13,950 nt of DNA from Candidatus Poseidoniaceae archaeon (GCA_013330765.1 DUHU01000230.1:1-13950); one strand, 5' to 3'. Positions 3-13,950 are shown, numbered from the stretch's first letter. Notes: generated from the letters alone by a model not told the origin. Program-made: numbers and translations.

Positions 3-230
3 CCGTCGACCAATCCGTCAAAGAGATTCGACCGTCAGATGACGTACTTCGATCAAAGCGACGAGTACTACTTCGAATTCGACACGTCGGAGTGTGGCAC
101 CGGTTCTTCGAGCTGTTTCTACAGCGGTAGCAGCAACAGCAACTACTTCTACAACAACTGGATTGTCCAGTGGCAGACCTCGACCTACCCCGCAACCTCC
201 TCCTACAACACCGGCGGCACCAGCCCCGGC
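3..230 (+). other. Second half of a nidogen-like surface module, cut by the window edge
   Basis: The stretch PSKRF, a short gap, then TYFDQSDEYYFEFDTSEC resembles the stretch at 1068-1197 (PNKMFIVEWHDM, then VVFYDVTNEFEFKYDTGC). In known surface modules of this kind, a 'rFvVeW...tfQvvlYe.tneieFqY' half normally follows a 'fpFFG..Y..v.v..nGyl.f' half. The similarity reaches upstream of the ATG at 39, which argues that bases 3-38 are coding. Confidence 0.6.
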
Positions 231-3200
231 AAGGTGTACCTCGACGACGACAACGGTGGATTCCTCAGCATCTCCGCTGACGACGGCCCCGGCATGAACC
301 TGGTCTTCCTCTGGGACGGCGACGAGTTTGCCATGGTCGGTATCGGTGACGAAAACGACATCAACGAGCCTCTCGCGGGCGGAAGCAGCGCTTCCAGCGT
401 GTCCAGCTACGGCTACACCAACGCCTACCGCTATGTCGTCCCAGGCGACATCACGGGCGAATTCGCAGGCTACAACTGGAACGCCAGCTACTCCAGCACC
501 GGCCAGAACGTGATCTGCACGGGTACCAACGGATGGACGCACTTCCTGCGCTCCTCCTCCGGCAGCCCAAGCTGTTCCTCCGGTTACTACTACGTCTACG
601 CTGCGAACTACAAGTGGAACGGATTTGCTCTCGGCAGCGGTTACTACGGCTCCATGGCGAGCACCGGAAGCGTCACCTACGACGTGATGAAGATCGCACC
701 CGAGCCGGACACCTACGCTCCGACGATCACCCACACGGCCTTGGCCGATTCCTATGCGCAGAAGCGTACCGTCACCGCGACCATCACCGACGGCGGTTCC
801 CCGCCCGCTGGCCTGAACGTCAGCACCTCGGCAGGTACCGGTCCCACGCTGTACTTCAGCGTGAACAACGGTACCACGGACTCGCTGTCCATGTCGCCGG
901 TCGGCAAGACCCGCGCACAGTGTTCAGTCGCAGCATGCGACTGGGCGGCAGACATCGAGGATCTGAACACCTCGGACTACGTCGAGTACTACATCACGGC
1001 CGAGGACGTTTCACCTGACGTCTCGACCCCCAACTCCGTGCAAACCACGGCGACCTCTTTCGAGGTCGGTGACCCCAACAAGATGTTCATCGTTGAATGG
1101 CACGACATGGGTTACACCAGCGCATACCTGTGCACCTACCAAGTGGTCTTCTACGACGTGACGAACGAGTTTGAGTTCAAGTACGACACCGGATGCCAAG
1201 TCTACGTCGACTACTCGACCACGGGATACCAAGACACGACCCGCGCGAAGGGTGAGAACTTGCAGAAGGGAACCGGTTGGCTCTACGGATCCAACCCCTT
1301 CACCAGCAACTACCGCATGCACACCTCGTCGACTTCCTACGGCCACGAGAGTTTCGCACCTGGTCTGACGGAAATCAAGAACTTCGACACGGCCCTCAGT
1401 GGCAGCAGCAGCGGTACCCCGTACGGCTACTACTGCGCTTACAGCTGGTACTGGAACACCTACAAGAACAGCTGCAACGCCAACATCGACATGCCCGATG
1501 ACTTCGACTTCGAGTACTTCGGTACCCTCTACGAGGGATCGGACTCGAACGACCGCATCCGCCTTGGTCGTCAGGGATACATGTACTTCATCGACAACGG
1601 CGCCACCAGCCTCGAGCGCGGCGTCTCCACGTGGAGCAGCAGCTTCCCGACGATGCCCTACTCGGGCAACTCGGCTTCCCGCCCAGGTACGATTGCACCA
1701 TGGTGGGGCTACTACACCTCCTACTACTGCTACGACAACACCGCGATCGACTGCAGCGTCCGCTACCGTACCATGCCCTACGACGGGAAGGGTACGGACG
1801 TCGACAGCGACATCACCTCCGACACCACGTGGGATTTGGACGACAGTCCGATTCGAATCAACCCCAGCAACGACTACCTGTCCATCTCGGCCGACCTCAC
1901 CATTGAGGCGGGCGTTGTGGTCCAAGTGGCCTCCGGCAAGGGCATCTCCTTTGACGGCAGCTGTGACGAGATGAAGATCAACGGCAACGACGCCAACCAC
2001 GTCCGCTTCGAGGGCCAAGCCGGCTCCGAGTGGAAGGGCATGGCGTTCACCGCGGCTTGCGCCAGCGGAACCGACGATCGTCACGAGTTCTCCTACGTGG
2101 ACTTCGCCAACACCAGTTCAGCGGCCATTGCTGCGGGCAGCCGCCACGGCAGCTCCCCCAGCTCCAACGCGAACGTGGGCAACTTCACGATGAACGACGT
2201 GACCTTCACCAACGTCGCTGCAGCATTTGAGCACGGCTCCGGACAAGGAACCGCTCTCGAAATGACGAACTTCGCCGTGGACGGCGCTGACAACGCGTGT
2301 TTCAACTTCGCTGAGAACGCCGTCGCCGTCCTGCGCGAGGGTTCCCTCAAGAGCTGCAACACCGTCGGACAGAGCTGGGGCGGCGCGATCGTCAACTACC
2401 CCGGTTCCACCGCGGGAAGCCTGTTCGTTGAGAACGTCACCGTCACGAACTCCTACGTGAACTTCGTCGACGTTGACCTCCAAGACGTGACCTTGTCCAA
2501 CGTGAGCGTGAGCAACACCAACACCCAGACCGGTGTCGCAATCGACGCCATGCACGGTGTCGATTCTGACGTGCACCTGTTCAACGTCAGCGTCCCCGGG
2601 TATGCGAACAGCGGTTTCAACGCCGTGTCGAGCATCCACATGGAAGACGTTGACTTTGGCAGCGCAGATTTGTGGATGTACCCCAACGGCTGGGGCTCAT
2701 CTACGGTTGGACCCTCCGGCGACAACGCCATGATGAAGGACGTCGATGCCGGTGACATCACCATGCAGCGTCTGCACTTCGGCGTGTTCGAAGGCATCAA
2801 CGCAGGCGACGTCTCCATTTCTGGCACGACCACCCACACGGACACCGAGACCTGGAAGAACCTGGACATCGGCGACCTCACCATCAACGGTGGTGCATGG
2901 AGCCTCATGCTGGAGAACGCTGACCTCAGCCGTCTGTACAGCTTCTCGACCTCCGCCACCAACACGATCGTGATGGAGCAGGGTTCGAGCATCGACCACG
3001 ACGACTCGTCGGTTGACGCCGTGTACGGCCGCAACTCCCACATCACCTTGGTGGGCGTGGAAGTGACCTCCAGCGACATCGACGGAACCAGCAACTACGT
3101 GGCCAAGGCGTCGTCCAACAGCGACATCGTGCTCATCGACGTCTCCTACGACGACGGTAGCGGTGCTGCGGATTGCGCGGACGCCAACGGTGGCACCGGC

Positions 3201-6200
3201 GATTGTTCGGTCGACGTTTCGTCGTCCGCGACCGTCTGGTACGGTGGGCTTGCACAAGTGTCCCTCTACCGTGAGGCGCTTGTGAACAACGTCGTGACCC
3301 AGGTGTACAAGTCTGGACACAGCGTTCGCACCACCGTGATGGACACCACGTCCTCGCCTGCGACGCCTCTCTTTGAGGTTGGTACCGCAGTGACCGACAC
3401 GACGGGCATGGCAGAAGCGTGGGTTATCTCTGGTGACTCCGACAGCAACACCTACGGCGATCACAACATCTTCGGATGGGGTGCAGCCGGCCAGAACGAG
3501 ACCACAGTGACCTCGGCATGGTATCCCACGGCCGGTTTCGGCTACGGTGACCAGATCGAGTTGCTCTTGCAACCTGCTCCGATCAACTTTGACCAGCCCA
3601 ACATGGACTGCAACTGGATGTCCAACAACCAGACCTTCCAAGGTGCAGAATCCAGCCCAGGCGTCTACGTCTTCGACAGCTTCCCAATGACGCTCTCGGC
3701 TGACCTCGACATCGACGGCTGCACGCTGGTGATGATGGGATCCGTGATGACCGTTGACGCTTCGGCGACCAACAGTCCTGTGCTGACCATCAGCAACGGC
3801 GGTACGCTCCTCGTGAACGTGTCCACCGACACCGGTGGCAAGGGTACCATCAAGGCCCAGACTTCCTCCTACGGCGTCCGTCTGGACGTCGCTGACGGAA
3901 CCCTGTCCGTGGCCGGCGGTGTCCTGAAGGATCTCCATCAGGACTCCTCCACGATGTCGGCCCTCTACATCGGCAGCGACGGTGCTTTGGTGCTGTCTGA
4001 ATCTGCTGAAGTCTACGGCGCCACGGCGTCCGATGACGACATGGCCACGGTCAAGATTGACCGAGGAAGCGTCAGCATCAGCGACTCGACGATCATCAAC
4101 ACCGGAAACACCGGTACCGCCCTTTGGATTGAGGGGTCGACGGCGTCCGTCGACAACATCGTTGTCAAGAACGGTGCCGTCGGTATCATGTCGAAGAACG
4201 CAGCGCCTCAAATCGACGGCTTCACGTCGACCGACAACACCGTCGGTCTCGACATGGACGGCGGCATGAGCCTCCCAACCATCTACCGCTCACCCAGCCT
4301 CGCTGGTATGTCCCGTGGATGGCAAACCTACGACATCGACCTCTCGGCGTTCATCGGCAACAGCGACTTCCTTCAGGTCGGCGCGAACTCGATTTACGCC
4401 GGTGGAAACGCTCACCCGTCCTACAACTTCGCGACCGGCAAGTACTACTTCATCACCGACCGGTACCGCATGGAGCTCACCGACAACCAGGGCAACACCT
4501 GGAACATCAGCGCCGGAGACACTGGCTACTACCCCTACAGCTCAAGCGACCCCAACGAGGGCGTGGGCGATGTTGGCACCTACCAAGGTGGCGCCGGTGG
4601 CGTTCCTCAGTGGGACTGCAACTACTACGGCATTGACTACGGTCCCAACCGAGTCGGCAACACGGGTTACTACGGCTATGGACAAACCGGCGTTTACTGG
4701 TATTTCACCGGAAACAGCGGATCCTACCCCAACTACTACAACAAGCCCGCTCAGTTCGGATTTGCTTGGGAGAACATCGAAGGCGTGACCCCCACCGGAT
4801 CCTACGCGTACTACCCCTACCACTACTGGGGCTTCGGCACCTACTCCTGGCAGGGCTGGACCGGCGTCATGGCTCCTCCTGAGGGCCTCGTTGGTAACTA
4901 CAACTACAACGTCTGCTTGGATTATGCTTACTCGTACTACATGAACAGCGGACAGGGCGCTCGCGTGACCTTCCCGATTGTGGACATCTCCTCGAGCAAC
5001 CTGACCGCAGCCACGATGTACATCGACGTGCTGCACAACCGCGCCAACAACTACCAGGACCGGTACGAGTTCGTGGCCCGCAGCGGCGACGATCCCGCTG
5101 ACTTGGGCGACTACAAGCGCGAGTCCGGCACTCCATTGTTCAAGGACGGCACCATCAACGGTGCTGACACGGGTGTGGAACTCGGCGGCAACTTCGCCGC
5201 TGGACACCTCGACAACGTCGAGATCAACAGCCCGAACGATGCAGGTATCATGGTGGTTGGCTCTTCCATTGCCAGCGCCGACGGCGTCACCGTGAACGGT
5301 GGCGATTACGGTGTGCTTGTGGCCAACGGTGCTGCGGGCAGCATGGACATGCAGAACATGGATTTGGACTCCCAAACCGTGGCCGGTATGTACTACGTCA
5401 AGGACTTCGGTGGCGACTTCACCGGTACCGTGACCAACAGCGCCGGTGCAGCCATCAAGTTCGGCCCCAGCACGACGAAGGACTTCAGCTACGATTCCGT
5501 TGATTTCTCCGGAAACAACGTGGGCTTTGACCTCGCAGGAAGCGGCCAATTCAGCTTCGTTGATTCGACCATTGGAAGCACCAGCAACGACTTCAAGATC
5601 AGCGGTTCCTCCGTGGTCGACTACATCGAAGGTACCGTGGACACCACCAGCGTTGACGTTACCGGGTCTGGCGAATTCAACCGAATGCGCCAACTCGACG
5701 TGACCATGGAAGCTGACCAGGGATCTGGTGCTGCAGGTGTGGCTGACGTCGCGGTTGTTCTCCGCAACGCAGAGGGCGCTACGGCGTCCTCAGGCACCAC
5801 CGATTCAACCGGTGTGGCGGAAGACATGACCTTCACGTCCATTGTCGTGGACGCTGCAGGTACCCACGGACAGGACCTCAACGGTTACACCGTGTCCTCG
5901 GTCGCCAAGGTCGACTACTACTGGACCTCGTCCAGCGACAACAACGCCGACTTCCGCTTTGTGGAAGAAGCCGTGACGCTGACCGATACCAGCGGGAACG
6001 CGGCGACCGTCGAACTCGTCGATGAGTTCGATCACCGTGTCTGCTACTACTTCCAGTCTGCAAGCTACAACTACCTCAACCGCTGTGCGAACGGCTGGTC
6101 CTCTACTGGAAGCTCCCGAGTGTTCAGCAACGGCCTCGAAGAGCACGGTTACTACTACGGCTCCGTTGACGGAACCGACTTCACCTCCGGTGAATCGGTG

Positions 6201-9200
6201 ATGATCGACTCGCCGGTCTGGTACCTCGACGGAGACACCTACGAGTGGAACGGCACCACCTTGGTCTGGACCGCTTCGTACGCCTCCAACGACATCAGCC
6301 GAATGTACCCCCGTTACAACGAGGAAGTGAACGTGTACATGCACGACTCCAAGGTGCAAGGCATGTCTCTGAACGACGAGGGTCAGCTCGCTGGCATCAA
6401 CTTCGGTTACCAGTACTACTCGATGAACCTGGACGCGAACAACACCGAGTTCAACGGCATCGCCTCGATTGTTGCGGCGATTGGCTATGGGTACTACAAC
6501 GACTATGAGTTGAACTTCTTCAACGTCCGGAACTCGACCATCTCCCACTACAAGGGTTGGACCGCGCTGAACAGCGCGATTCAGGTCCAGGACATGTGCA
6601 TGCGCATCTACGGTGGCGAAGGCAACATGATCGAGAACAACACGTTCAACGATTGTGCGGTCGGCATCGAAATGATGCGCTCTCCGTACTACTGGAGCCA
6701 CAACTCCTACGAAATCGGTGCAGACAACATCACCATCCAGAACAACCTGTTCGAGGACGGTGGAGAAATCTCCGACATCCGTTTCTACCCTCTCGCCAAC
6801 GTCGAGGGTGGCATGGTGCTGAACAACGTCCTCAACAATACGCTTGGTGACGACTCTGCGATCTCCGCATGGGACGGTACCATTGAGGGACTGACGATTT
6901 CAGGAAACACCATCCGCGGATTCACGCAGAACGGTATCTACCTGAACGACATCGAAGGCTACGAGGTCAGCGGCAACGACATGACCGGGCCCGGTGAGGA
7001 CTCCGTCGGTATCTACGCAAACGGTGGCTTTGGTGACATCAAGAACAACGACATCGTCGATTCCGACACGGGTATCCTGATGTCCGAAGCCACGCAACCC
7101 GTCGGGACCACCACGGACCTGTGCGGTATCAGCGGCAACTACGGATACAGCGACTCGTGCACCTTCAACTTCGCCGGCAACGGTTCGACGCTCGTCATCG
7201 ACATCGAGACGGACAGCTGGGGCTACGAGATCTCCCTCGAGATCACCAAGCCCGACAACACGAAGGACAGCTGGAGCACCTACACCTTCAGTTCCAACTC
7301 GGCTTACAAGCCGCTTACGACCTACACGGCCGCGGGAACGTACACCATCGACGTCTCTGACAGTTGGGGCGACGGTGGTATCACCCTCGACGCCTACTAC
7401 ACGTCGGCGGTCAGCGGTGTAACCGGACCGGTCATCAGCGGCAACGACGTCTCGATGACGCCAGGCTCCGGTGCGATTTCCACGACGGGTATCCTTGTCG
7501 AGGACTGCACGGGTACGGCCATCAACATGGCTGACAACTTCGTCGCTGTGATCACCGATGCGGTGCTCACTGACGGCTGTGACGTCATCGATGAGAACTC
7601 CGAACTGCTTGGTGGCAGTCAAGTCTCCACCACCGGTTTCGTCTCCACCAGCGGAGACACCGTGACCCTGAGCGGTACAACCATCTCAGGCTACGACACC
7701 GGTGTGGAATCCGACGGTGGTACGCTCAGCATCATCGACAACGCGTCCATCGCAGGCATCACCCTCGGTGCTCATGCCTACGACACGCAGTTGATGGTGA
7801 ACTACGCTGACTTCGACGGCGGCACCTCCGGTGTCGGCCTCTTGGTCGAAGACAGCGGTGAGGCCCTGATGTACTGCATGAACCTTGACGGCGCCAATGG
7901 GTTGGAAGTCCGCAACACGGACTTCCGCTTCAACATGGGTGACGTGAACGCAGCGGAGGCCATCTTCGTCTCTGACTCGGTCGGTAAGGTCGAGAACCTG
8001 ACGTGGATGTCCGGCGTGACCACGCAGATGGAACTGGACCTCGGTGCAGAAGTGACCTCCATCGGTCAGGACCTGGAACCGTCGCAGCTCATTGTGCCCG
8101 CGGGTACGATGATCGACGAGGCCAACCTCCTCGACGTCAACGCCCAGCACTTGAGCCAGCCCGTCACCGGTGAGGTCGGCGTCTCCATCGTGAGCACCGA
8201 CGGCCTCCGTGCGGCCTACATCTCGCCGGACTTCCAGTCCGACGCGATGGGTGTCGACGGCGACAACAGCGATTGGGTCGGTTCGTCCCTGAACCCATCC
8301 GACGACGCGATGCCTGGCGAGTTGACCGAGAACTTCTACGTGACCTACACGGAGAACGACGACCTGTACGTGGCCATTGACGGCCTCGACCTGTCCACCT
8401 CGGACCTCTTGCTGTACTTCGACGTCACCGGTGGCGGTTCCGATGTCGGCTACGACTACGGTGCATCCGGTGCCCACGACCTGCCCTTCGAGGCAGACTT
8501 CGTGTACTGGGCCGAGTCGGACGCGAGCAACGATCTCTACGCCTACGGCTTCCTTGGCTGGGGCGTGACGTCGCTCTCCGCCGACAACGTGGACGGTGAC
8601 TTCTCTGGCGACTTCGCCGAGATCATGGTGCCATTCAGCCGCCTCGGTGGTATGCCGAGCTCTGTGCGCATGATTGCCATCGTTCAGAGCGACAGCAGCG
8701 CTGACGTGAGCGAGGTCTACCCAGACCAAGCCATGGACACGGCGACGACCTTGCAGGACTTCAGCGAGTACTACACTGTGGTGCTCGGTGCGAACAACCT
8801 GCCCGCTGGCGTGCTCGCTGACGAGGTGCTGACCTACCGCACCTTCCTCGGCAGCAACGTGCCATCGGCCGCGAAGGAATACGACGTGATGATCAAGCAC
8901 ACCAACGACGACTGTGCTGTCGACTGGGCGACCGAGACCGGCGTCAACATGTCTGACAACGTCATCCTGAACATGGACATCAAGCGCGCTTGCCCAAGCA
9001 TTGGCAGCCAACTCGAGAACATCACCGTGAACGAGGACTCTGCCGCGTACACGGTCACCTTGACCTCCTACGCATCCGACGAACAGGACGCCGCTGGCGA
9101 CCTGACGTGGGCTGTGAGCGAAGGTGAGACCGTGACCGTCTACAGCGACACGAATCTGCCCGCTGAAGGTCTGGTTTCCTGGACCCTCTCCGGTCATGAC

Positions 9201-11531
9201 CTCAGCATCACCCCGATCGCCGACCAGTTCGGCACGGTGCAGTTCAACTTCACCGTGACCGACAGCAACGGCCTCGTGGACGAGCGCTCAATCCTGTTCA
9301 CCGTGTTGAACGTGAACGACGCTCCTGAGATCTGCCAGCGCGACACCAACGGCGACTGCGTGGACACCATGATGCTCTTCGGAGATGCTGCTCACGTGAA
9401 CTACATCCCTGAGGACAGCCTTGTGGGTGGCCAAAGCGTGTCGGTGATTCTGTCGAGCGTGGCCAACCAGGGCACGAACGCACTGAACCTGATCAAGGAC
9501 CAAGCGAACGAGAACGACCCGTCCCGCCAGAACTACACGTGGGCTGTTTCGGTTGATTCCGCCTGCCCGCTCTTCGAAGTGGGCATGGTTAGCGGTACTG
9601 AGTTGACCGTGACCGGCAAGTCCGGCATGGCCTTCGAAGCCGGTGGCTCCTGCGACATCACGCTGAGCCTCTCCGACGACGGCGCTGAGAACCAGAACGC
9701 CGTTGACGACATCATCACCATCAGCGTGGTGCCCGTCAACGACGCTCCGACCATCGACGACTGGAACCTGCAGGCTGGAGACACGATCAACTGGGCTTCC
9801 AACGACTCGTCCCTCATCTACGGTGAGTGGACCATCAAGGTCATGGAAGACACCGAGGACGTCGACGAACTGACCTTCGACCTCTCGGCGATCAAGAACG
9901 ACGTTGACCACGACCTCAGCGACCTCACCTGGTCCCTGCTGCCGAAGCTCGACGACAACGGCCGTGCGTACTGCGCGTACTCGAACTACTTCGCGTTCAC
10001 CTTCAACGGTGACGAGTTGGTGCTCGACCTTGTCAAGGACGCAACGACGAACGCGCCGATCAACCAGATCGACTACCTCTACGACGGCGGTGTTCACCAG
10101 GTCAACCCGGCCGGCAAGGGCTTCTGTGAGATGGAACTCTACCTCACCGACAGCGCTTCCGCACCGGCTGGCTTTGCCTACGACATCAACGACGACGGAT
10201 ACATCCAGCAAACGTCGCTGAAGCGTGACGTGAAGATCATCGTGCAGAACGTGGCCGAGCAGGTCCCCGACTACTACTTCGAGTCGAGCACTGGCTTCGA
10301 CTTCAACGGCGTGTCCAACGTCATGGACGGCACCTGGGTGCCGGTCACCGTGTCCGTGACCGCCGGTGGAGACGAAGGTCCCTACAACCACGACAGCATG
10401 CTGATGATCACCTTCCAGAGTGACGGCCACAGCGAGACCGAGCGCGACGCGCTCTACATCGACGCTCCCGCCTACGGCGAGACCGTCACTGTGGACTCCG
10501 AAGTCTTCGTGAAGGGCGTCACCACGACCGTGTGGGTTGAGATGGACGTCAAGACCTGTGTCGACGAGAGCTGTGACATGACCAAGTCGGTCGACGACCG
10601 GTTCATCGCTGACGAGCCCGCCAGCCACGGCAAGGTCACCTTGCCGAACAAGCTCGACTACTGGGCCGAGCCTGGCTTCTACGGCTCTGAAGACGGTACG
10701 GACAGCATCCGCCGACCTGTGCTTGAGGACAAGGACTGGTGCAACAACGTGATGTACAACACCCTCACGGGCAACATCGACGTTTGTGACCAGGCTGACT
10801 ACGGTCGCGGATCCTTCGAGATCACCGACCAGGACCTGCCTGACGTGGTGCGCACCATCGGTGCCTCCGGCGTGCCCTCCTTCGCTCCGAGCATCGTCGC
10901 CGTCGCCCTCGCGGGCTTCGTCGTCGGTCTCCTCGCTATGGCGGGTCGCCGTGACGAGGAAGAAGAGGAGGAGAACACCTCCCAGCGCTTCGTCGACGAC
11001 GAGACGGCCGTGAGCCCGGTCATCGCGACCATCCTGATGGTGGCGATCACCGTGGTTCTGTCCGGTGTCATCTACGTCTGGGCCAGCAGCCTGGCCGAGA
11101 CCGACGTCAAGGGTGTGCCCCGCATCACCTTCGACATCGAAGACATCGATGCCTACAACGCCGAGACCGGCCACTGGAAGATCGAAGTTCAGCAGTCCGA
11201 AACCGAACTGGCTACGCAGGCCGTTGAGATCAAGATCTTCGCGGCTGAGATCGACGGTGTGTATGAGGCCAAGATGGCCAACTCCGACGGTGTGTACGGG
11301 TTCTCGCCCTACAACAGCGACAGTCTGGTGACCTTCTCCGACTCCGTTCGGACCGAAGGCGACGACAAGGTGTCCACCTTCTTCGTCGGTGACACGATCT
11401 TCGTGCGCACCCACTTGGCTGACGGTACCCCGTTGACCGACGTGACCATCCAGCTGTCCTACGCACCCGAGGTGGGTCAAGGCGCCATGCTCCGTACCTG
11501 GAGCGGCCTGTCCTACGACCTCGCTGCGTGA
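3..11531 (+). CDS. Giant modular cell-surface protein with C-terminal type IV pilin-like domain (5' partial)
   Basis: A single open frame codes for a secreted, membrane-anchored, beta-rich protein, probably an adhesin or particle/polysaccharide-binding surface protein. Residues below are numbered from the first ATG at 39. Modules in order: half of a nidogen-like module (1-60), Ig-like (about 223-340), nidogen-like halves (344-585), beta-helix 1 (590-1059), Ig-like (1060-1184), beta-helix 2 (1185-1409), Tyr-rich insert (1410-1702), beta-helix 3 (1703-1884), Ig-like (1885-1999), beta-helix 4 (2000-2689) with an inserted beta-sandwich (2360-2459), CBM9/DOMON-like (2727-2898), three cadherin-like repeats (2994-3413), stalk, anchor (3618-3636), pilin-like segment (3655-3830). 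Many Cys pairs and N-x-S/T sequons fit an exported glycoprotein. The ATG at 39 is probably not the start: the frame is open to base 3, no signal peptide follows it, and the first residues are the second half of a module. Binding target and function are unknown. The coding call is certain; module names are pattern judgements. Confidence 0.93.
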   Translation, partial: PSTNPSKRFDRQMTYFDQSDEYYFEFDTSECGTGSSSCFYSGSSNSNYFYNNWIVQWQTSTYPATSSYNTGGTSPGKVYLDDDNGGFLSISADDGPGMNLVFLWDGDEFAMVGIGDENDINEPLAGGSSASSVSSYGYTNAYRYVVPGDITGEFAGYNWNASYSSTGQNVICTGTNGWTHFLRSSSGSPSCSSGYYYVYAANYKWNGFALGSGYYGSMASTGSVTYDVMKIAPEPDTYAPTITHTALADSYAQKRTVTATITDGGSPPAGLNVSTSAGTGPTLYFSVNNGTTDSLSMSPVGKTRAQCSVAACDWAADIEDLNTSDYVEYYITAEDVSPDVSTPNSVQTTATSFEVGDPNKMFIVEWHDMGYTSAYLCTYQVVFYDVTNEFEFKYDTGCQVYVDYSTTGYQDTTRAKGENLQKGTGWLYGSNPFTSNYRMHTSSTSYGHESFAPGLTEIKNFDTALSGSSSGTPYGYYCAYSWYWNTYKNSCNANIDMPDDFDFEYFGTLYEGSDSNDRIRLGRQGYMYFIDNGATSLERGVSTWSSSFPTMPYSGNSASRPGTIAPWWGYYTSYYCYDNTAIDCSVRYRTMPYDGKGTDVDSDITSDTTWDLDDSPIRINPSNDYLSISADLTIEAGVVVQVASGKGISFDGSCDEMKINGNDANHVRFEGQAGSEWKGMAFTAACASGTDDRHEFSYVDFANTSSAAIAAGSRHGSSPSSNANVGNFTMNDVTFTNVAAAFEHGSGQGTALEMTNFAVDGADNACFNFAENAVAVLREGSLKSCNTVGQSWGGAIVNYPGSTAGSLFVENVTVTNSYVNFVDVDLQDVTLSNVSVSNTNTQTGVAIDAMHGVDSDVHLFNVSVPGYANSGFNAVSSIHMEDVDFGSADLWMYPNGWGSSTVGPSGDNAMMKDVDAGDITMQRLHFGVFEGINAGDVSISGTTTHTDTETWKNLDIGDLTINGGAWSLMLENADLSRLYSFSTSATNTIVMEQGSSIDHDDSSVDAVYGRNSHITLVGVEVTSSDIDGTSNYVAKASSNSDIVLIDVSYDDGSGAADCADANGGTGDCSVDVSSSATVWYGGLAQVSLYREALVNNVVTQVYKSGHSVRTTVMDTTSSPATPLFEVGTAVTDTTGMAEAWVISGDSDSNTYGDHNIFGWGAAGQNETTVTSAWYPTAGFGYGDQIELLLQPAPINFDQPNMDCNWMSNNQTFQGAESSPGVYVFDSFPMTLSADLDIDGCTLVMMGSVMTVDASATNSPVLTISNGGTLLVNVSTDTGGKGTIKAQTSSYGVRLDVADGTLSVAGGVLKDLHQDSSTMSALYIGSDGALVLSESAEVYGATASDDDMATVKIDRGSVSISDSTIINTGNTGTALWIEGSTASVDNIVVKNGAVGIMSKNAAPQIDGFTSTDNTVGLDMDGGMSLPTIYRSPSLAGMSRGWQTYDIDLSAFIGNSDFLQVGANSIYAGGNAHPSYNFATGKYYFITDRYRMELTDNQGNTWNISAGDTGYYPYSSSDPNEGVGDVGTYQGGAGGVPQWDCNYYGIDYGPNRVGNTGYYGYGQTGVYWYFTGNSGSYPNYYNKPAQFGFAWENIEGVTPTGSYAYYPYHYWGFGTYSWQGWTGVMAPPEGLVGNYNYNVCLDYAYSYYMNSGQGARVTFPIVDISSSNLTAATMYIDVLHNRANNYQDRYEFVARSGDDPADLGDYKRESGTPLFKDGTINGADTGVELGGNFAAGHLDNVEINSPNDAGIMVVGSSIASADGVTVNGGDYGVLVANGAAGSMDMQNMDLDSQTVAGMYYVKDFGGDFTGTVTNSAGAAIKFGPSTTKDFSYDSVDFSGNNVGFDLAGSGQFSFVDSTIGSTSNDFKISGSSVVDYIEGTVDTTSVDVTGSGEFNRMRQLDVTMEADQGSGAAGVADVAVVLRNAEGATASSGTTDSTGVAEDMTFTSIVVDAAGTHGQDLNGYTVSSVAKVDYYWTSSSDNNADFRFVEEAVTLTDTSGNAATVELVDEFDHRVCYYFQSASYNYLNRCANGWSSTGSSRVFSNGLEEHGYYYGSVDGTDFTSGESVMIDSPVWYLDGDTYEWNGTTLVWTASYASNDISRMYPRYNEEVNVYMHDSKVQGMSLNDEGQLAGINFGYQYYSMNLDANNTEFNGIASIVAAIGYGYYNDYELNFFNVRNSTISHYKGWTALNSAIQVQDMCMRIYGGEGNMIENNTFNDCAVGIEMMRSPYYWSHNSYEIGADNITIQNNLFEDGGEISDIRFYPLANVEGGMVLNNVLNNTLGDDSAISAWDGTIEGLTISGNTIRGFTQNGIYLNDIEGYEVSGNDMTGPGEDSVGIYANGGFGDIKNNDIVDSDTGILMSEATQPVGTTTDLCGISGNYGYSDSCTFNFAGNGSTLVIDIETDSWGYEISLEITKPDNTKDSWSTYTFSSNSAYKPLTTYTAAGTYTIDVSDSWGDGGITLDAYYTSAVSGVTGPVISGNDVSMTPGSGAISTTGILVEDCTGTAINMADNFVAVITDAVLTDGCDVIDENSELLGGSQVSTTGFVSTSGDTVTLSGTTISGYDTGVESDGGTLSIIDNASIAGITLGAHAYDTQLMVNYADFDGGTSGVGLLVEDSGEALMYCMNLDGANGLEVRNTDFRFNMGDVNAAEAIFVSDSVGKVENLTWMSGVTTQMELDLGAEVTSIGQDLEPSQLIVPAGTMIDEANLLDVNAQHLSQPVTGEVGVSIVSTDGLRAAYISPDFQSDAMGVDGDNSDWVGSSLNPSDDAMPGELTENFYVTYTENDDLYVAIDGLDLSTSDLLLYFDVTGGGSDVGYDYGASGAHDLPFEADFVYWAESDASNDLYAYGFLGWGVTSLSADNVDGDFSGDFAEIMVPFSRLGGMPSSVRMIAIVQSDSSADVSEVYPDQAMDTATTLQDFSEYYTVVLGANNLPAGVLADEVLTYRTFLGSNVPSAAKEYDVMIKHTNDDCAVDWATETGVNMSDNVILNMDIKRACPSIGSQLENITVNEDSAAYTVTLTSYASDEQDAAGDLTWAVSEGETVTVYSDTNLPAEGLVSWTLSGHDLSITPIADQFGTVQFNFTVTDSNGLVDERSILFTVLNVNDAPEICQRDTNGDCVDTMMLFGDAAHVNYIPEDSLVGGQSVSVILSSVANQGTNALNLIKDQANENDPSRQNYTWAVSVDSACPLFEVGMVSGTELTVTGKSGMAFEAGGSCDITLSLSDDGAENQNAVDDIITISVVPVNDAPTIDDWNLQAGDTINWASNDSSLIYGEWTIKVMEDTEDVDELTFDLSAIKNDVDHDLSDLTWSLLPKLDDNGRAYCAYSNYFAFTFNGDELVLDLVKDATTNAPINQIDYLYDGGVHQVNPAGKGFCEMELYLTDSASAPAGFAYDINDDGYIQQTSLKRDVKIIVQNVAEQVPDYYFESSTGFDFNGVSNVMDGTWVPVTVSVTAGGDEGPYNHDSMLMITFQSDGHSETERDALYIDAPAYGETVTVDSEVFVKGVTTTVWVEMDVKTCVDESCDMTKSVDDRFIADEPASHGKVTLPNKLDYWAEPGFYGSEDGTDSIRRPVLEDKDWCNNVMYNTLTGNIDVCDQADYGRGSFEITDQDLPDVVRTIGASGVPSFAPSIVAVALAGFVVGLLAMAGRRDEEEEEENTSQRFVDDETAVSPVIATILMVAITVVLSGVIYVWASSLAETDVKGVPRITFDIEDIDAYNAETGHWKIEVQQSETELATQAVEIKIFAAEIDGVYEAKMANSDGVYGFSPYNSDSLVTFSDSVRTEGDDKVSTFFVGDTIFVRTHLADGTPLTDVTIQLSYAPEVGQGAMLRTWSGLSYDLAA
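705..1060 (+). other. Ig-like domain of the giant protein
   Basis: It begins with the linker PDTYAPTITHTALADSYAQ and continues with alternating hydrophobic strands (RTVTATITD, PTLYFSVNN, DYVEYYITAEDVS). This is the usual look of a bacterial/archaeal Ig-like or fibronectin-type extracellular domain that describes a 'TITHTPLAD...vtatItD' pattern. One Cys pair (SVAAC and the preceding AQC) is within it. The fold is inferred from pattern only. Confidence 0.5.
1068..1800 (+). other. Nidogen-like module halves of the giant protein
   Basis: The first part reads FIVEWHDM and then VVFYDVTNEFEFKYDTGC. The second part reads FDFEYFGTLYEG, RIRLGRQGYMYF and PGTIAPWWGYY, which match the 'fpFFG.tY..i.v..nGyi.F...iaPfW' pattern of nidogen/tectorin-like surface modules. 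The halves appear in reverse of the usual order, so the first may complete a module whose opening half has been lost or lies elsewhere. The region is notably rich in Tyr, Trp and Cys. Confidence 0.5.
1806..3215 (+). other. Right-handed parallel beta-helix block 1
   Basis: It opens with the cap-like sequence YLSISADLTIEAGVVVQV, typical of the start of surface beta-helices. It continues with about 20-25-residue rungs that alternate short hydrophobic strands with Asn/Asp/Ser/Gly turns (for example VRFEGQ, EFSYVDFANTS, MNDVTFTNV, VENVTVTNSYVNF, LSNVSVSNTN). Beta-helices of this kind form long rigid stalks and often bind or cleave polysaccharides. No catalytic residues of a lyase are recognisable. 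Confidence 0.7.
3216..3590 (+). other. Ig-like (CNA-B / carboxypeptidase-regulatory-like) module 1
   Basis: A short beta-sandwich-like unit between beta-helix blocks. It carries AQVSLYREALVNN and the turn motif TDTTGMAEAWV (from base 3393), the usual 'tDs.G.a' signature of CNA-B/carboxypeptidase-regulatory-like folds. A similar motif, TDSTGVAEDMTF, is in the equivalent module at 5691-6035, so the two modules look like diverged copies. Confidence 0.5.
3591..4265 (+). other. Parallel beta-helix block 2
   Basis: Rungs such as MTLSADLDIDGCTLVMMG, PVLTISNGGTLLVNVS, GVRLDVADGTLSVAGG, ALYIGSDGALVLSES, VKIDRGSVSISDSTI and ALWIEGSTASVDNIVVKNG show the regular strand-turn-strand spacing of a right-handed beta-helix. 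It ends at a Gly-rich turn just before the Tyr-rich insert. Confidence 0.65.
4266..5142 (+). other. Tyrosine-rich insert in the beta-helix
   Basis: A 293-residue stretch that breaks the beta-helix pattern. Its core at bases 4623-4859 (residues 1529-1607) has 17 Tyr, 5 Trp and 4 Phe in 79 residues, mostly in YY and YxY pairs with Gly, Asn and Pro. The flanks include TYDIDLSAFIGNSDFLQVGANS and VTFPIVDISSSNLTAATMYID, which look like the outer strands of a jelly-roll (carbohydrate-binding-like) domain. Aromatic-rich surfaces of this kind often stack on sugars. That role is inference. Confidence 0.5.
5143..5690 (+). other. Parallel beta-helix block 3
   Basis: Rungs such as GTINGADTGVELGGNF, GHLDNVEINSPNDAGIMVVG, ADGVTVNGGDYGVLVANG, FSYDSVDFSGNNVGFDLAG and FSFVDSTIGSTSNDFKISG follow the 'G...s.n..gi.l' repeat of beta-helices. 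The block resumes the helix after the Tyr-rich insert and closes at the second Ig-like module. Confidence 0.65.
5691..6035 (+). other. Ig-like (CNA-B / carboxypeptidase-regulatory-like) module 2
   Basis: It reads VADVAVVLRNAEG followed by TDSTGVAEDMTF (Thr codon at 5799), the same turn motif as in the module at 3216-3590. Later strands (GYTVSSVAKVDYYW, EEAVTLTD, AATVELVD) complete a small beta-sandwich-like unit. Placement after a beta-helix block repeats the arrangement seen earlier in the protein. Confidence 0.5.
6036..8105 (+). other. Parallel beta-helix block 4
   Basis: The longest helix block. Its rungs are classic beta-helix repeats of the NosD/PbH1 type: NMIENNTFNDCAVGIEMM, NITIQNNLFEDGG, MVLNNVLNNTLGDD, LTISGNTIRGFTQNGIYL, YEVSGNDMTGPGEDSVGIYA and DIKNNDIVDSDTGILMS. 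A separate beta-sandwich is inserted at 7116-7415, after which helix rungs resume (PVISGNDVSM, TLSGTTISGYDTGVES, LSIIDNASIAGITLG). Confidence 0.75.
7116..7415 (+). other. PPC-like beta-sandwich inserted in beta-helix 4
   Basis: A 100-residue unit that starts with a Cys pair (DLCGISGNYGYSDSC). It has the look of a pre-peptidase C-terminal (PPC)-like or P-domain-like beta-sandwich: STLVIDIETDSWGYEISLEI, then AGTYTIDVSDSWGDGGITL. The repeated DSWG/DSWGDGG turns are Asp-rich and could bind calcium. It interrupts an otherwise regular beta-helix. The assignment is by pattern only. Confidence 0.45.
8217..8730 (+). other. CBM9/DOMON-like domain
   Basis: It begins with MGVDGDNSDWVG, the typical entry ('iDGd.sDW') of CBM9-like and DOMON-like domains. 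These continue with an acidic, aromatic-lined beta-sandwich; here FYVTYTENDDLYVAIDG, LLLYFDVTGGGSDVGYDY, FEADFVYWAES and FAEIMVPFSRLGG. Members of this group bind sugars, haem or other ligands. No ligand can be named from the sequence. Confidence 0.55.
9018..10275 (+). other. Three cadherin-like extracellular repeats
   Basis: Repeat 1 runs from NITVNEDS to FTVLNVNDAPEI (about 9018-9332), repeat 2 from YIPEDS to SVVPVNDAPTI (about 9399-9764), and repeat 3 from IKVMEDTEDV to IIVQNVAEQVP (about 9765-10275). The VNDAP linkers and 'v.Eds' openings are the hallmarks of bacterial/archaeal cadherin-like repeats, in which Asp/Asn residues at the domain junctions bind calcium. Repeat 3 has lost the NDAP linker. 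The repeats probably make a semi-rigid stalk just outside the membrane. Confidence 0.75.
10276..10946 (+). other. Membrane-proximal stalk and first transmembrane anchor
   Basis: A Cys-containing beta domain (including WVPVTVSVTAGG, TVWVEMDVKTCVDESC and a later Cys pair) leads to VPSFAPSIVAVALAGFVVGL, a transmembrane helix over residues 3618-3636. Two Arg, an Asp and six Glu follow at once (residues 3637-3645). A hydrophobic helix plus an Arg-Arg stop-transfer signal at the end of a large ectodomain is the normal C-terminal anchor of archaeal surface proteins, with the ectodomain outside. In this gene the frame continues past it. Confidence 0.8.
11001..11531 (+). other. C-terminal archaeal type IV pilin-like domain
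   Basis: Residues 3655-3682 read ETAVSPVIATILMVAITV and then VLSGVIYVWA. This is the conserved N-terminal segment of euryarchaeal type IV pilins (DUF1628-type, 'aVSPVIgtILMVaiTVilaavi'), where class III signal peptidase cuts just before VSP. Here the residue before VSP is Ala, as the peptidase prefers, and the upstream side is acidic. About 145 residues of pilin-type beta domain follow (HWKIEVQQSETEL, SPYNSDSLVTF, FFVGDTIFVRTHLADGTPL, IQLSYAPEVGQGAML). No ATG, GTG or TTG suitable for a separate gene precedes the segment. Confidence 0.8.
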
Positions 11532-11671: not shown

Positions 11672-11696
11672 TGAACGTTCATGCCTTAGGCATGGA
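11672..11696 (+). promoter_or_regulatory. Palindrome and start-codon hairpin before the HAD gene
   Basis: TGAACGTTCA (11672-11681) is a perfect 10-base palindrome and could be a small operator. Overlapping it, CATGCC (11680-11685) pairs with GGCATG (11689-11694) around a TTA loop and buries the HAD start codon at 11692. No AT-rich TATA-like box and no clear ribosome-binding site are visible in the spacer, which fits either leaderless transcription or read-through from the left. A regulatory role is inference. Confidence 0.35.
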
Positions 11697-12351
11697 CGGA
11701 CTCGAATGCGTGGTCTTTGATTGCGACGGCGTGCTCGTGGACGCTGTGTCATCATGGCGCACGCTGCACGATCACTTCGGAACCGACAACAACGCCAATC
11801 TCCAGCGCTTCATTGCAGGAGAGTTTGATGATTTGACCTTCATGAGGTCCGACATCGCGTTGTGGAAAGGCGTGCAGGACCCGATTCACAAGGACGACCT
11901 GTTTCGAGCGTATGCCGGAGCACGTCTGATGCCAGGCGCACGTGAGTTGGTTGCAGCGTTGCAAGAGCAAGGCGTCTACGTCGCCATCGTTTCTGCAGGC
12001 GTAGATCTCTTTGTCTCGAGCATTGCGGCCATGCTCAAAGTCGACGATTGGATCGCCAACGGCTTCACGTTCGACGACGAAGGCTGGTTGCTCGATGAGG
12101 GCATATGTCGCCTTCACGCCACGGGCAAGGGCGCCATCATTGACCGCCTGATTGCGATGCAAGGATTCGATCCTTCGAAGGTGGTCAGCATTGGCGATTC
12201 TGAAATGGACCTCTCGATGCAGGTTGAAGGAAGCCGATTTATCGGCTTCAACCCCTCCCGGGAGAGCTCAAAAGCTGCTTTTTTGGAAGCAGGGGTCCCA
12301 ACGGTGCTCAGCAAAGACCTGCATGACGTTCGTCAGCACCTTGGCCTGTGA
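11692..12351 (+). CDS. HAD-superfamily phosphatase, phosphoserine-phosphatase-like
   Basis: A 219-residue soluble hydrolase that removes phosphate from a small metabolite through an aspartyl-phosphate intermediate. All four HAD motifs are present: motif I FDCDGVLVD with nucleophile Asp10 and acid/base Asp12; motif II IVSAG with Ser101; motif III Lys146 in GKG; motif IV IGDSEMD (residues 167-173) with the Mg-binding Asp169 and Asp173. Between motif I and about residue 80 lies a helical C1-type cap. The order and length match the phosphoserine-phosphatase-like (HAD-IB) group. However, motif I is DxDGV rather than the DxDST of true SerB, and motif IV is GDSxxD rather than GDGxND, so the substrate is uncertain. 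The ATG at 11692 places motif I at the usual distance from the N terminus. The gene converges with the DP1 gene with no gap. Confidence 0.88.
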   Translation: MDGLECVVFDCDGVLVDAVSSWRTLHDHFGTDNNANLQRFIAGEFDDLTFMRSDIALWKGVQDPIHKDDLFRAYAGARLMPGARELVAALQEQGVYVAIVSAGVDLFVSSIAAMLKVDDWIANGFTFDDEGWLLDEGICRLHATGKGAIIDRLIAMQGFDPSKVVSIGDSEMDLSMQVEGSRFIGFNPSRESSKAAFLEAGVPTVLSKDLHDVRQHLGL

Positions 12352-12354
12352 TCA
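12349..12354. other. Abutting convergent stop codons (TGATCA)
   Basis: The HAD stop TGA (12349-12351, + strand) is directly followed by the reverse complement of the DP1 stop TGA (12352-12354, - strand), giving the palindrome TGATCA. There is no spacer, so each mRNA must end inside the other gene and the 3' ends overlap as antisense. Confidence 0.95.
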
Positions 12355-13950
12355 GGCAAAGGGAATCGACGTGGTCGCGTGGGTCCCAAGATTCACGACG
12401 GTCAACATGCACGGTCGTGGTTGGAATCCTAGCATTCGTTGGTAACTGGTTTGGTCTTGCCACGTCGACGAACATACCAATGTGGTTCCTTTGAAATCGA
12501 GGCAAGCATGACCGTGAACGTGGCCGGTCACGAAAATGTCTGGAACTTCCCGGATGACCAAGCCGTCTTCAGGTTCCGGAGACAGTGGCGTCTTTCCGCC
12601 CCATTGGGGTGCAAGATGACGCCGTCGAAGCATCTGGCGCATGGCCTCAACAGGCTCCGCATAGGACACGGTGCGCAAACCTGCGACAAAATCGTCGATT
12701 GACTTGCCGTGGTACGACAACACCCGCACGCCATGCAAACTGAAATCACAGGGGTTTCCGACGAAGGTCGTGGCGTGGTAATCGGATTGGATGTCCTTCT
12801 CAAAGGTGGGTTGAGGCTCTGCCGGTCGAACCGCGTCATGGTTGCCAGGAAGCATCACGCACTCGACCCACTCGGGCAGAAGGTCAAGCAATCGAGCAAA
12901 CTCCGTGTATTGGTTGAACAAATCTGGGATGGACAACTCCCGGTCTTGGCCAGGATAAATTCCAACGCCGTCGACGCAATCGCCGCTCAAGATGAGGTAC
13001 TTGATGGTCTTCGCGAGCGGATCTGTTCTGAACCATTGGATCATCTTGTGCCATTGCGCCTCAAGGAAGGTCTTGCTTCCAACGTGGATGTCCGAGAGGA
13101 ACGCCACCGAAACGCCGGTTTCGGCATGCGTCTTTTCATGCCGGTCTTGGAGGGGGAAATGCAGGTCGTCAACATAGAACAAATCCCCATTCTGAGAGAA
13201 GGTTCCGCTGACACCGATGACGTCGTCGGGCATCAGGCCGGTCTGGATGATCTCCTCATGGACTCGATCACGCTCTTCACCCTGCTTTTTGGTCAACAAG
13301 CAGTTGAGTTCTCCTGTTTCATCCTCGAGACCCCACATCAGGTGGCCGTTCTTGGTGTACCGAGGCTCGTTCACCAAACCGATGGCCACCGCGATGTTGT
13401 CGCGTCCCTTGTAACGTCCAGACTCCGCGGTCAATCGGGCAATGTCCGAAGGCTTGCGTGGCAGCCTTGAATTTCGTATGATGAGTCGTCGAATGGATTC
13501 CAACCGGTCGTTGAAGCACGCGTTGATGTCGGTCATCTTTCCTTCCGTGATCGAGTTCCCTGTGATGTCAAAATGAACCTTGATGTCCACGTCCACGTCG
13601 GTGGCCAGTTCCGGGAAATCAGAGGCCGCCCAATCGGGCGTGCCGTTTCTTAGCGGGAGATCCACGGGCTCCGGAGCAGCAAGGGGTGCAATCGTTCGAG
13701 CCAAGTCGTTCGGCCGTTGGTCGAGCAATCGGTCCACGCTGCTGGGGGATGACCCCGGCGTAGCTGTCCGATTTTGGTACGCAGCAAGCAGTTTCTCCAG
13801 TGCATCCTGATTCAGCAGACCTGTGATGCCGGCATGAGAGGCCGCGGAAATCAGGCCAAGTGGGTCGGAATGGTCCATCAGCCGTTGGCGAACGTCGGCT
13901 CCCTGGACAAGAAGCCCCTGTTCGAGGAGCCGGGCGTAGACGGTCCCCCA
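12352..13950 (-). CDS. polB: DNA polymerase D small subunit (DP1), 3'-5' exonuclease subunit (5' partial)
   Basis: DP1 is the proofreading subunit of the heterodimeric family D replicative polymerase; it partners the large subunit DP2. Numbering from the first ATG in the window (13878): a variable N-terminal region (1-90), an OB-fold segment (about 155-245, with NIAVAIGLVNEP and LEDETGELNCLL), then a calcineurin-like phosphoesterase domain (258-470). Every metal-site motif of an active nuclease is visible: DIHVG (263-267), GDCVDG (299-304) in the typical context GVGIYPGQD, GNHD (345-348), YHG (389-391) and GHVHGH (452-457). The C-terminal tail WQDQTSYQRMLGFQP is typical of DP1. The frame stays open from 13878 to the window edge, and those codons read YARLLEQGLLVQGADVRQRL, which looks like the usual DP1 N-terminal helix. 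The true start is therefore outside the window. The DP2 gene is not in view. Confidence 0.95.
   Translation of the reverse strand, partial: WGTVYARLLEQGLLVQGADVRQRLMDHSDPLGLISAASHAGITGLLNQDALEKLLAAYQNRTATPGSSPSSVDRLLDQRPNDLARTIAPLAAPEPVDLPLRNGTPDWAASDFPELATDVDVDIKVHFDITGNSITEGKMTDINACFNDRLESIRRLIIRNSRLPRKPSDIARLTAESGRYKGRDNIAVAIGLVNEPRYTKNGHLMWGLEDETGELNCLLTKKQGEERDRVHEEIIQTGLMPDDVIGVSGTFSQNGDLFYVDDLHFPLQDRHEKTHAETGVSVAFLSDIHVGSKTFLEAQWHKMIQWFRTDPLAKTIKYLILSGDCVDGVGIYPGQDRELSIPDLFNQYTEFARLLDLLPEWVECVMLPGNHDAVRPAEPQPTFEKDIQSDYHATTFVGNPCDFSLHGVRVLSYHGKSIDDFVAGLRTVSYAEPVEAMRQMLRRRHLAPQWGGKTPLSPEPEDGLVIREVPDIFVTGHVHGHACLDFKGTTLVCSSTWQDQTSYQRMLGFQPRPCMLTVVNLGTHATTSIPFA

Follow-up and report, generated by a model that had tools for sequence, protein, structure and literature searches.

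In PilB of Streptococcus sanguinis, a bacterial protein, the pilin comes first, at the N terminus, and the cargo lies behind it. PilB is reported to be modular and to carry a large adhesion part (PMC8179133), and it resembles the giant protein analyzed below in that a pilin is attached to a larger functional part, although in the giant the order is reversed. Thermoproteales offer a second parallel: their type IV pilus loci are reported to encode S-layer-like proteins with a C-terminal anchor (PMC4858521). In both cases a surface protein with a C-terminal helix is linked to pilins, there by genomic context between separate genes and here within a single chain (PMC4858521). Archaeal adhesion pilins (PF07790, Haloferax PilA type) differ from the giant, whose pilin helix is preceded by an anchor helix and then an acidic loop. 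Archaellins and the FlaF/FlaG (ArlF/ArlG) stator proteins are a further group for comparison: profiles gave no significant match to either of two FlaF/FlaG-like candidates in the single-contig genome G018, but the fold is similar. These candidates, picked by size and position (one with an Arch_flagellin match, the other with no Pfam match), are separate genes in the archaellum cluster of that genome. The region ahead of the pilin resembles signals of the PGF-CTERM and VPXXXP-CTERM type, the archaeal C-terminal sorting signals of archaeosortase substrates: the VPSFAPS motif, the helix and the basic residues (VPSFAPS-TM-RR) are alike, but the giant's copy is internal, is followed by the pilin, and would come to lie near a C terminus only after a cut. 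No NCBIfam CTERM model matched at E 1, and Exosortase_EpsH (PF09721) gave weak matches in 5 of 39 genomes, none above the cut-off. The giant's arrangement suggests that cutting of one chain may yield both a surface protein and the pilin that matches it.

The window, that is the whole stretch of 13,950 nucleotides from a Candidatus Poseidoniaceae archaeon that we analyzed, contains a frame open from base 3 to the stop codon at 11529-11531 (Table 1). The protein is about 4,500 residues long; five genomes of the same genus have frames of 4573-4719 residues. The order of parts is an export signal (judged by eye and seen in relatives, not in the window), a giant ectodomain, a VPSFAPS-type anchor helix, an acidic loop and a pilin.

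Table 1. Features of the giant gene, in window coordinates.
Feature	Position	Strand	Remarks
Giant surface protein	3..11531	+	at least 3,842 residues in window; contig edge truncates 5' end
Penultimate ectodomain, just 5' of anchor	10248..10860	+	also adjoins pilin head in two hairpin-less paralogues
VPSFAPS motif ahead of anchor helix	10872..10892	+	mean top-residue frequency 0.96, 40 rows
TM1 anchor helix, then Arg-Arg (cytosolic end)	10893..10952	+	hydropathy; conservation 0.72
Acidic cytosolic linker, sequence variable	10953..11006	+	SFAP/SFVP to +1 spacing
Putative class III peptidase site (A|V)	11007..11012	+	11007-11009 = -1 Ala, 11010-11012 = +1 Val; -2 = Thr
Hydrophobic helix of the pilin (H-domain, residues +1 to +25)	11010..11084	+	nearly invariant; Pilin_N match
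Pilin head, beta-sandwich	11085..11528	+	model closest to Haloferax volcanii type IV pilus subunit

The last 173 residues form a complete archaeal type IV pilin, with a Pilin_N segment and a pilin fold, that is a long N-terminal helix followed by a beta-sandwich head. Against a cut-off of 25.2, Pilin_N (PF07790) reaches 33.1 bits with the whole protein and 39.3 bits with just the last 187 residues, and TIGR02537 (NCBIfam) scores 33.1 (cut-off 20). The family search that the first-pass annotation had proposed bears out its pilin segment at the end of one giant frame, and both its coordinates (11001-11531) and its residue number (3655, numbered from the base-39 ATG) fit. Positions 11007-11060 encode the segment AVSPVIATILMVAITVVL, and the helix starts with residue 3670 of the frame rather than at an N terminus behind a short leader. 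Textbook prepilins have a positively charged leader; here the residues ahead of the pilin are acidic, a point that the annotation had missed, and the free pilins in these genomes likewise have acidic residues at that place. Residues -1 to +9 and +11 to +17 are identical in 89 sequences, not all of them independent. Because these residues are fixed while several synonymous codons are used, the conservation exceeds what chance would leave. Conservation is 0.99 across the 25 residues of the pilin helix, versus 0.72 in TM1.

Immediately 5' of the pilin, the chain has another hydrophobic helix (VPSFAPS-TM-RR, 10872-10952). The annotation had missed it, and it matters whether the chain is cut or not: if the protein were uncut, its pilin helix could not enter a filament unless the anchor were pulled along. 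The motif (SFAP/SFVP) was located in 90 of 92 copies, and in these it lies 40-45 residues before +1. Since the anchor helix directly precedes the pilin helix, we infer that the two form a hairpin, a well-supported topology in which the acidic loop would be cytosolic, the pilin helix would cross back out, and the head would sit outside beside the giant's last domain. The Arg-Arg pair after TM1 fits a cytosolic loop, and further support comes from two paralogues in which the whole membrane hairpin is missing and the ectodomains on either side of it adjoin.

Among 39 genomes, including the one that the window comes from, 23 carry the fused pilin in a single frame, and exactly these 23 match the giant body strongly. 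The junction recurs in G018 and in all 80 contigs that were retained as the best 80 among 526 relatives and that come from many assemblies. Orthologues split into two genes, which the annotation had named as evidence against a fusion, did not appear: across 145 genomes in the order, matches at E 1e-30 or better include 80 helix-bearing copies, none of them free-standing. The fusion is real and conserved, and either of the interpretations first offered for it, a polyprotein that releases a pilin or a pilus-anchored giant, may be right. We judge the chain to be built from parts already known, and to be either a precursor of two chains or a tethered pilin that stays uncut.

We favor, at just under an even chance, a reading in which the giant and its own partner pilin are made as a single-chain precursor that is cut, the pilin joining a filament and the giant docked there. 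The N-terminal signal would direct export of the giant part and the VPSFAPS-TM-RR helix would anchor it, leaving the loop in the cytosol and the pilin head outside. An archaeal prepilin peptidase would cleave the loop at A|V, at a site canonical in one family (f2) and non-canonical in the window's family (f1), to yield a mature pilin of 173 residues. The freed pilin may then enter a type IV filament machinery (pilus or archaellum), and its head may keep hold of the penultimate domain; the giant would in this way be docked on a filament or would anchor one.

Recurrence of the fusion, the whole pilin fold and the fixity of the H-domain next to a variable linker and TM1 all favor the precursor, as does the putative cut site, where alanine, one of the G/A/S residues of class III sites, occupies -1 in 89/89 sequences and, by family, in 71/71 distinct f1 and 17/17 f2 fusions. 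An acidic residue is found at -3 in 69/71 f1 and 17/17 f2 fusions, as in free pilins. A charged -2 residue, which a review calls critical for archaeal prepilin peptidases (PMC4371748), is present in 15/17 f2 fusions and 31/37 free pilins versus 4/71 distinct f1 fusions. Its absence from most of the window's family, the window included, counts against the precursor; however, 6 of the 37 free f1 pilins, two of them DESA, also lack the charge, so its loss is compatible with cutting. Judged from sequence, class III cutting at A|V is plausible but unproven.

The canonical f2 site, the like start site of free pilins, the cytosolic position that the hairpin topology would give the loop, and the filament machinery further favor the precursor. 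T2SSF platform proteins are encoded in 23/23 fusion-bearing genomes and peptidase candidates in 22/23, and 11 genomes without either have neither a fused pilin nor a strong giant-body match. Against this, most peptidase candidates fall below the PF06847 cut-off, five genomes have T2SSF yet no fusion, 21 of the 23 fusion-bearing genomes belong to one family, so that kinship confounds the correlation, and no pilus or archaellum genes were seen next to the giant gene, either in the window or, on inspection by eye, in 11 relatives. The hairpin-less paralogues cut both ways: joining penultimate domain to pilin head counts for the precursor, whereas a head able to exist without a cuttable helix counts against it.

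Alternatively, and possibly though we doubt it, the whole chain is kept: helix and head would stay in the membrane by the anchor as a fixed docking or capping subunit at the filament base and so link the filament with the giant. The pilin helix would then be under selection for helix-helix contact with other pilins, or for contact with the platform protein, rather than for cutting. The -1 alanine and acidic -3, kept as in free pilins, and the canonical f2 site speak against this, and the f1 loss of charge is no bar to cutting. We consider it unlikely that the pilin part is a mere second membrane anchor and scaffold, with no filament tie and a sequence kept by descent. A hairpin would grip a giant protein well, and the hairpin-less paralogues employ the head without the pilin helix, but a plain anchor would not hold 25 residues nearly fixed while TM1 drifts, and the fusion is missing from the 11 genomes where neither T2SSF nor peptidase was found. 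Very improbably, a free prepilin could arise from a start codon within the linker or TM1: some ATG, GTG or TTG lies in the 30 codons before +1 in 81/89 sequences, and 32/89 have a Shine-Dalgarno-like stretch, but no position is common to most copies (at best -7 in 33/89 and -2 in 29/89), 8/89 have none, and protein-level conservation covers the continuous frame. An erroneous joining of two genes in assembly or annotation, conceivable in so fragmented a genome (276 contigs, 60 percent complete), is contradicted by the recurring junction and can be dismissed for practical purposes.

An anchor-type tail (motif plus helix) also ends a different protein in six genomes, and a pilin-type segment starts the free pilins of the same genomes. 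The giant-pilin fusion is found in a widespread group of marine archaea.

The open frame spans positions 3 to 11531 of the window and encodes 3842 residues of a conserved giant surface protein that ends in a complete pilin. The window is an entire contig, C247 (13,950 bases), of a source genome that is 60 percent complete and split into 276 contigs; in five genomes of the same genus the corresponding frames measure 4573-4719 residues, with an ordinary-type export signal, judged by eye, near their start. Pfam places a Big_9 domain in the giant and Pilin_N, above cut-off, at its extreme end; a NosD-like stretch scores slightly under the Pfam cut-off. Some giants are publicly annotated as type IV pilin or FlaG/FlaF family flagellin (among 120 listed of 272 proteins).

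The first-pass annotation had asked whether the fusion recurs in related genomes and other assemblies, and it does. The fused pilin is present in 23 of 39 genomes (the window's own counted), including the single-contig genome G018, and matches in three further genomes are free pilins only. A strong match to the giant's body upstream of the anchor (at least 200 bits) picks out the identical 23 genomes, all weaker matches scoring 92 bits or less. Among the best 80 of 526 relatives, the pilin shares one frame with upstream sequence in 80 of 80 contigs: 76 frames are still open where the fetched stretch ends, and four stop 318-1261 residues upstream. Named contigs with the best matches carry the labels Euryarchaeota, Candidatus Poseidoniales, Candidatus Poseidoniaceae, Poseidonia or Candidatus Thermoplasmatota, and we accordingly assign the source to the Marine Group II archaea. 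One fused copy (CALDQY010000095.1) lies in a bin labelled Rhodobiaceae bacterium, the only bacterial label among the 80, and is most likely a misbinned archaeal contig.

Across the class, 201 of 292 genomes gave some match. Among the matches listed, at least 150, in at least 145 genomes, reach 227 bits or more, a few of them partial, and all belong to two families of one order, the window's own (f1) and a second (f2). The 20 listed genomes of a family outside the order (f3) gave weak matches only, with best E-values of 5e-15 to 1e-21. A single stop flagged in some rows of this search is consistent with a pilin shorter by a few residues, as checked in G009 alone. Five genomes (G047, G136, G155, G262 and G266) hold two giant-pilin matches each, which may reflect true paralogy or a bin of mixed strains; in G262 one of the two stops inside the pilin, at a contig edge.

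Orthologues split into two genes, which would have spoken against the fusion, were sought with the mature pilin as query in 145 genomes of the order. At E 1e-30 or better, 78 genomes yielded 83 matches; the 80 that contain the helix all lie within frames of 241-5478 residues, of which the shortest sits where a contig begins, and the three without it are one contig edge and two paralogues. A free-looking copy in G108 was rejected as a contig edge. Among 34 short homologues inspected (of 120 listed from 1553), P0122, P0124 and P0148 begin at a Met that matches the linker of known fusions, and so look like cut-off giants. In P0128, whose longest contig is 1,370 bases, an ordinary leader precedes the same head; it may be a true free copy, or a chimera, since fused and free genes have similar helices.

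The tail is ordered as a penultimate ectodomain, a VPSFAPS motif with a first helix, an acidic loop and the pilin. Its conservation is given in the table as means over 40 aligned rows, and positions are numbered about the putative class III (prepilin peptidase) site. Ala occupies -1 in 89 of 89 fused sequences (the 80 loci plus nine others, with some contigs present twice; a related fused set of 92 rows holds 81 distinct sequences). Across the same 89, positions +1 to +9 and +11 to +17 are invariant and most use several codons, which reflects selection on the protein, not recently shared DNA.

Features of the giant's tail, its downstream neighbours and two paralogues (window positions, except for the paralogues)
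Feature	Position	Strand	Remarks
Penultimate ectodomain	from 10248	+	~200 residues; mean top-residue frequency 0.61
VPSFAPS motif	after ectodomain	+	mean top-residue frequency 0.96
First helix, then Arg-Arg	after VPSFAPS	+	mean top-residue frequency of helix 0.72
Acidic loop	between Arg-Arg and site	+	mean top-residue frequency 0.56
Site Ala/Val-Ser-Pro-Val-Ile-Ala...	after loop	+	top-residue frequency 1.00 at -1
Pilin helix	from +1	+	mean top-residue frequency 0.99
Pilin head, ~148 residues	after pilin helix	+	mean top-residue frequency 0.66
HAD-IB phosphatase	11692-12351	+	downstream neighbour of giant gene
Archaeal DNA polymerase II small subunit	12352-13950	-	downstream neighbour of giant gene
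Paralogue L289 (G055)	184-2280	-	699-residue frame; penultimate domain and pilin head
Paralogue L080 (G017)	3-1880	-	cut by contig end; penultimate domain and pilin head

Both halves of this junction recur separately in other proteins. A 52-residue tail query gave 16 matches (E up to 1) in 13 genomes. In six of them (G018, G007, G014, G031, G010 and G021) the VPSFAPS-helix tail with its basic residues forms the C-terminal end of a different protein, in open frames of 605-864 residues (E 0.001-0.025); eight of the other ten matches are the giants themselves. The tail of these six proteins, which we take to resemble archaeal C-terminal sorting signals, is likely to be a sorting or anchor signal. 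Models of C-terminal sorting signals gave no match in the window, and a search of the 39 genomes for a sortase that would serve VPSFAPS returned none over cut-off. Free pilins of the same genomes, in turn, begin with the same site as the fused pilin (in the window's own genome, MNNENRNDEA/VSPVIATILMVAITVVL, the slash marking the site). The giant thus joins a C-terminal-type signal directly to an N-terminal-type signal.

The Arg-Arg after the first helix places the loop inside. Two paralogues, L289 and L080, have neither helix nor the loop; rather, a short linker joins the penultimate domain to the pilin head (46 percent and 42 percent identity to the giant for the two parts of L289, by BLASTP). 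This direct joining puts both domains on the same side of the membrane and indicates that they can form one continuous ectodomain. A hairpin of first helix, loop and pilin helix is therefore well supported, and from these paralogues we infer that domain and head touch in the giant too.

Would the site inside this hairpin be cut? Peptidase_A24 (PF01478) matched in one of 39 genomes, against 12 of 14 control genomes. A G011 protein used as query turned up peptidase candidates in 26 of 39 genomes, and PF06847 did so in 26 of 39, over cut-off in 10; combined, the two give candidates in 22 of 23 fusion carriers (weakly in G003, missing in G005). Among 25 peptidase loci fetched, including that of the query, 23 have the motif GGAD[AV]K and 17 also have the first Asp motif, by our own search patterns. 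According to a review (PMC4371748), processing needs G, A or S at -1, and archaeal pilin precursors depend critically on a charged -2. A charged -2 is found in 15 of 17 f2 fusions and 4 of 71 f1 fusions, and in 5 of 7 f2 and 31 of 37 f1 distinct free pilins (from 51 loci, five without a row under the pattern used, and including a few large proteins with an N-terminal pilin). Fused and free f1 pilins differ at Fisher 8e-17, a value computed over copies that are not independent. The f2 fusions thus keep the canonical site, and the window's family has lost one feature of it. That loss need not block cutting, since a charged -2 is also missing in 6 of 37 free f1 pilins, two of which carry DESA, seen in some fusions too. 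Peptidase cutting of the fusion is plausible, by our estimate somewhat more likely than not in f2 and a little short of even in the window's family.

Tentatively, and with rather less than even confidence, the giant may be a polyprotein: prepilin peptidase would cut an internal class III signal in the cytosol, and the freed cognate pilin would re-join the anchored giant outside, mounting it on a type IV filament. We know of no earlier internal class III signal, and the giant's would be the first. Were the peptidase to cut here, class III signals could act inside a protein, and searches confined to N termini would miss such substrates. The two families, one with and one without a charged -2, lend themselves to testing the peptidase's requirements. 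Three large proteins in G011 and G020 (L077-L079), with frames 600-720 residues long, bear an N-terminal pilin signal; one frame runs off the fetched stretch, some show repeats by eye, and the proteins may be mounted on pili in the ordinary orientation.

Use of the giant's pilin in a filament is suggested by the invariant helix and by co-occurrence with machinery, a co-occurrence that is confounded by kinship. T2SSF platform proteins are present in 28 of 39 genomes, including 23 of 23 with the fusion, and five genomes have T2SSF and lack the fusion; in 11 f2 genomes we found no platform, peptidase, fused pilin or strong giant-body match. That the fused pilin is a missing FlaF/FlaG became less probable with FlaF/FlaG-like candidates, with no sequence match, in the G018 archaellum cluster.

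A conserved giant physically joined to a pilin would link the surface coat with filament machinery. According to PMC6461757, Marine Group II (Poseidoniales) is the most abundant group of planktonic archaea in the surface ocean; the case for their attachment is built chiefly on archaellum genes, and the genes for thrombospondin and flotillin give extra hints. The arrangement had been put forward as one without a described system, and our literature search, with subscription journals mostly outside it, agrees: in what was seen of its sources, including PMC6461757, PMC4858521, PMC12448462, PMC4371748 and PMC5069720, a giant with a C-terminal pilin is undescribed.

We saw no pilus gene adjoining the giant gene in the window or, by eye, in 11 relatives. 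A HAD-like frame lies downstream of the giant in 9 of these 11, and most have another long frame upstream, both by eye. In G018 the archaellum cluster lies ~26 kb from the giant gene and a second pilus cluster ~170 kb away.
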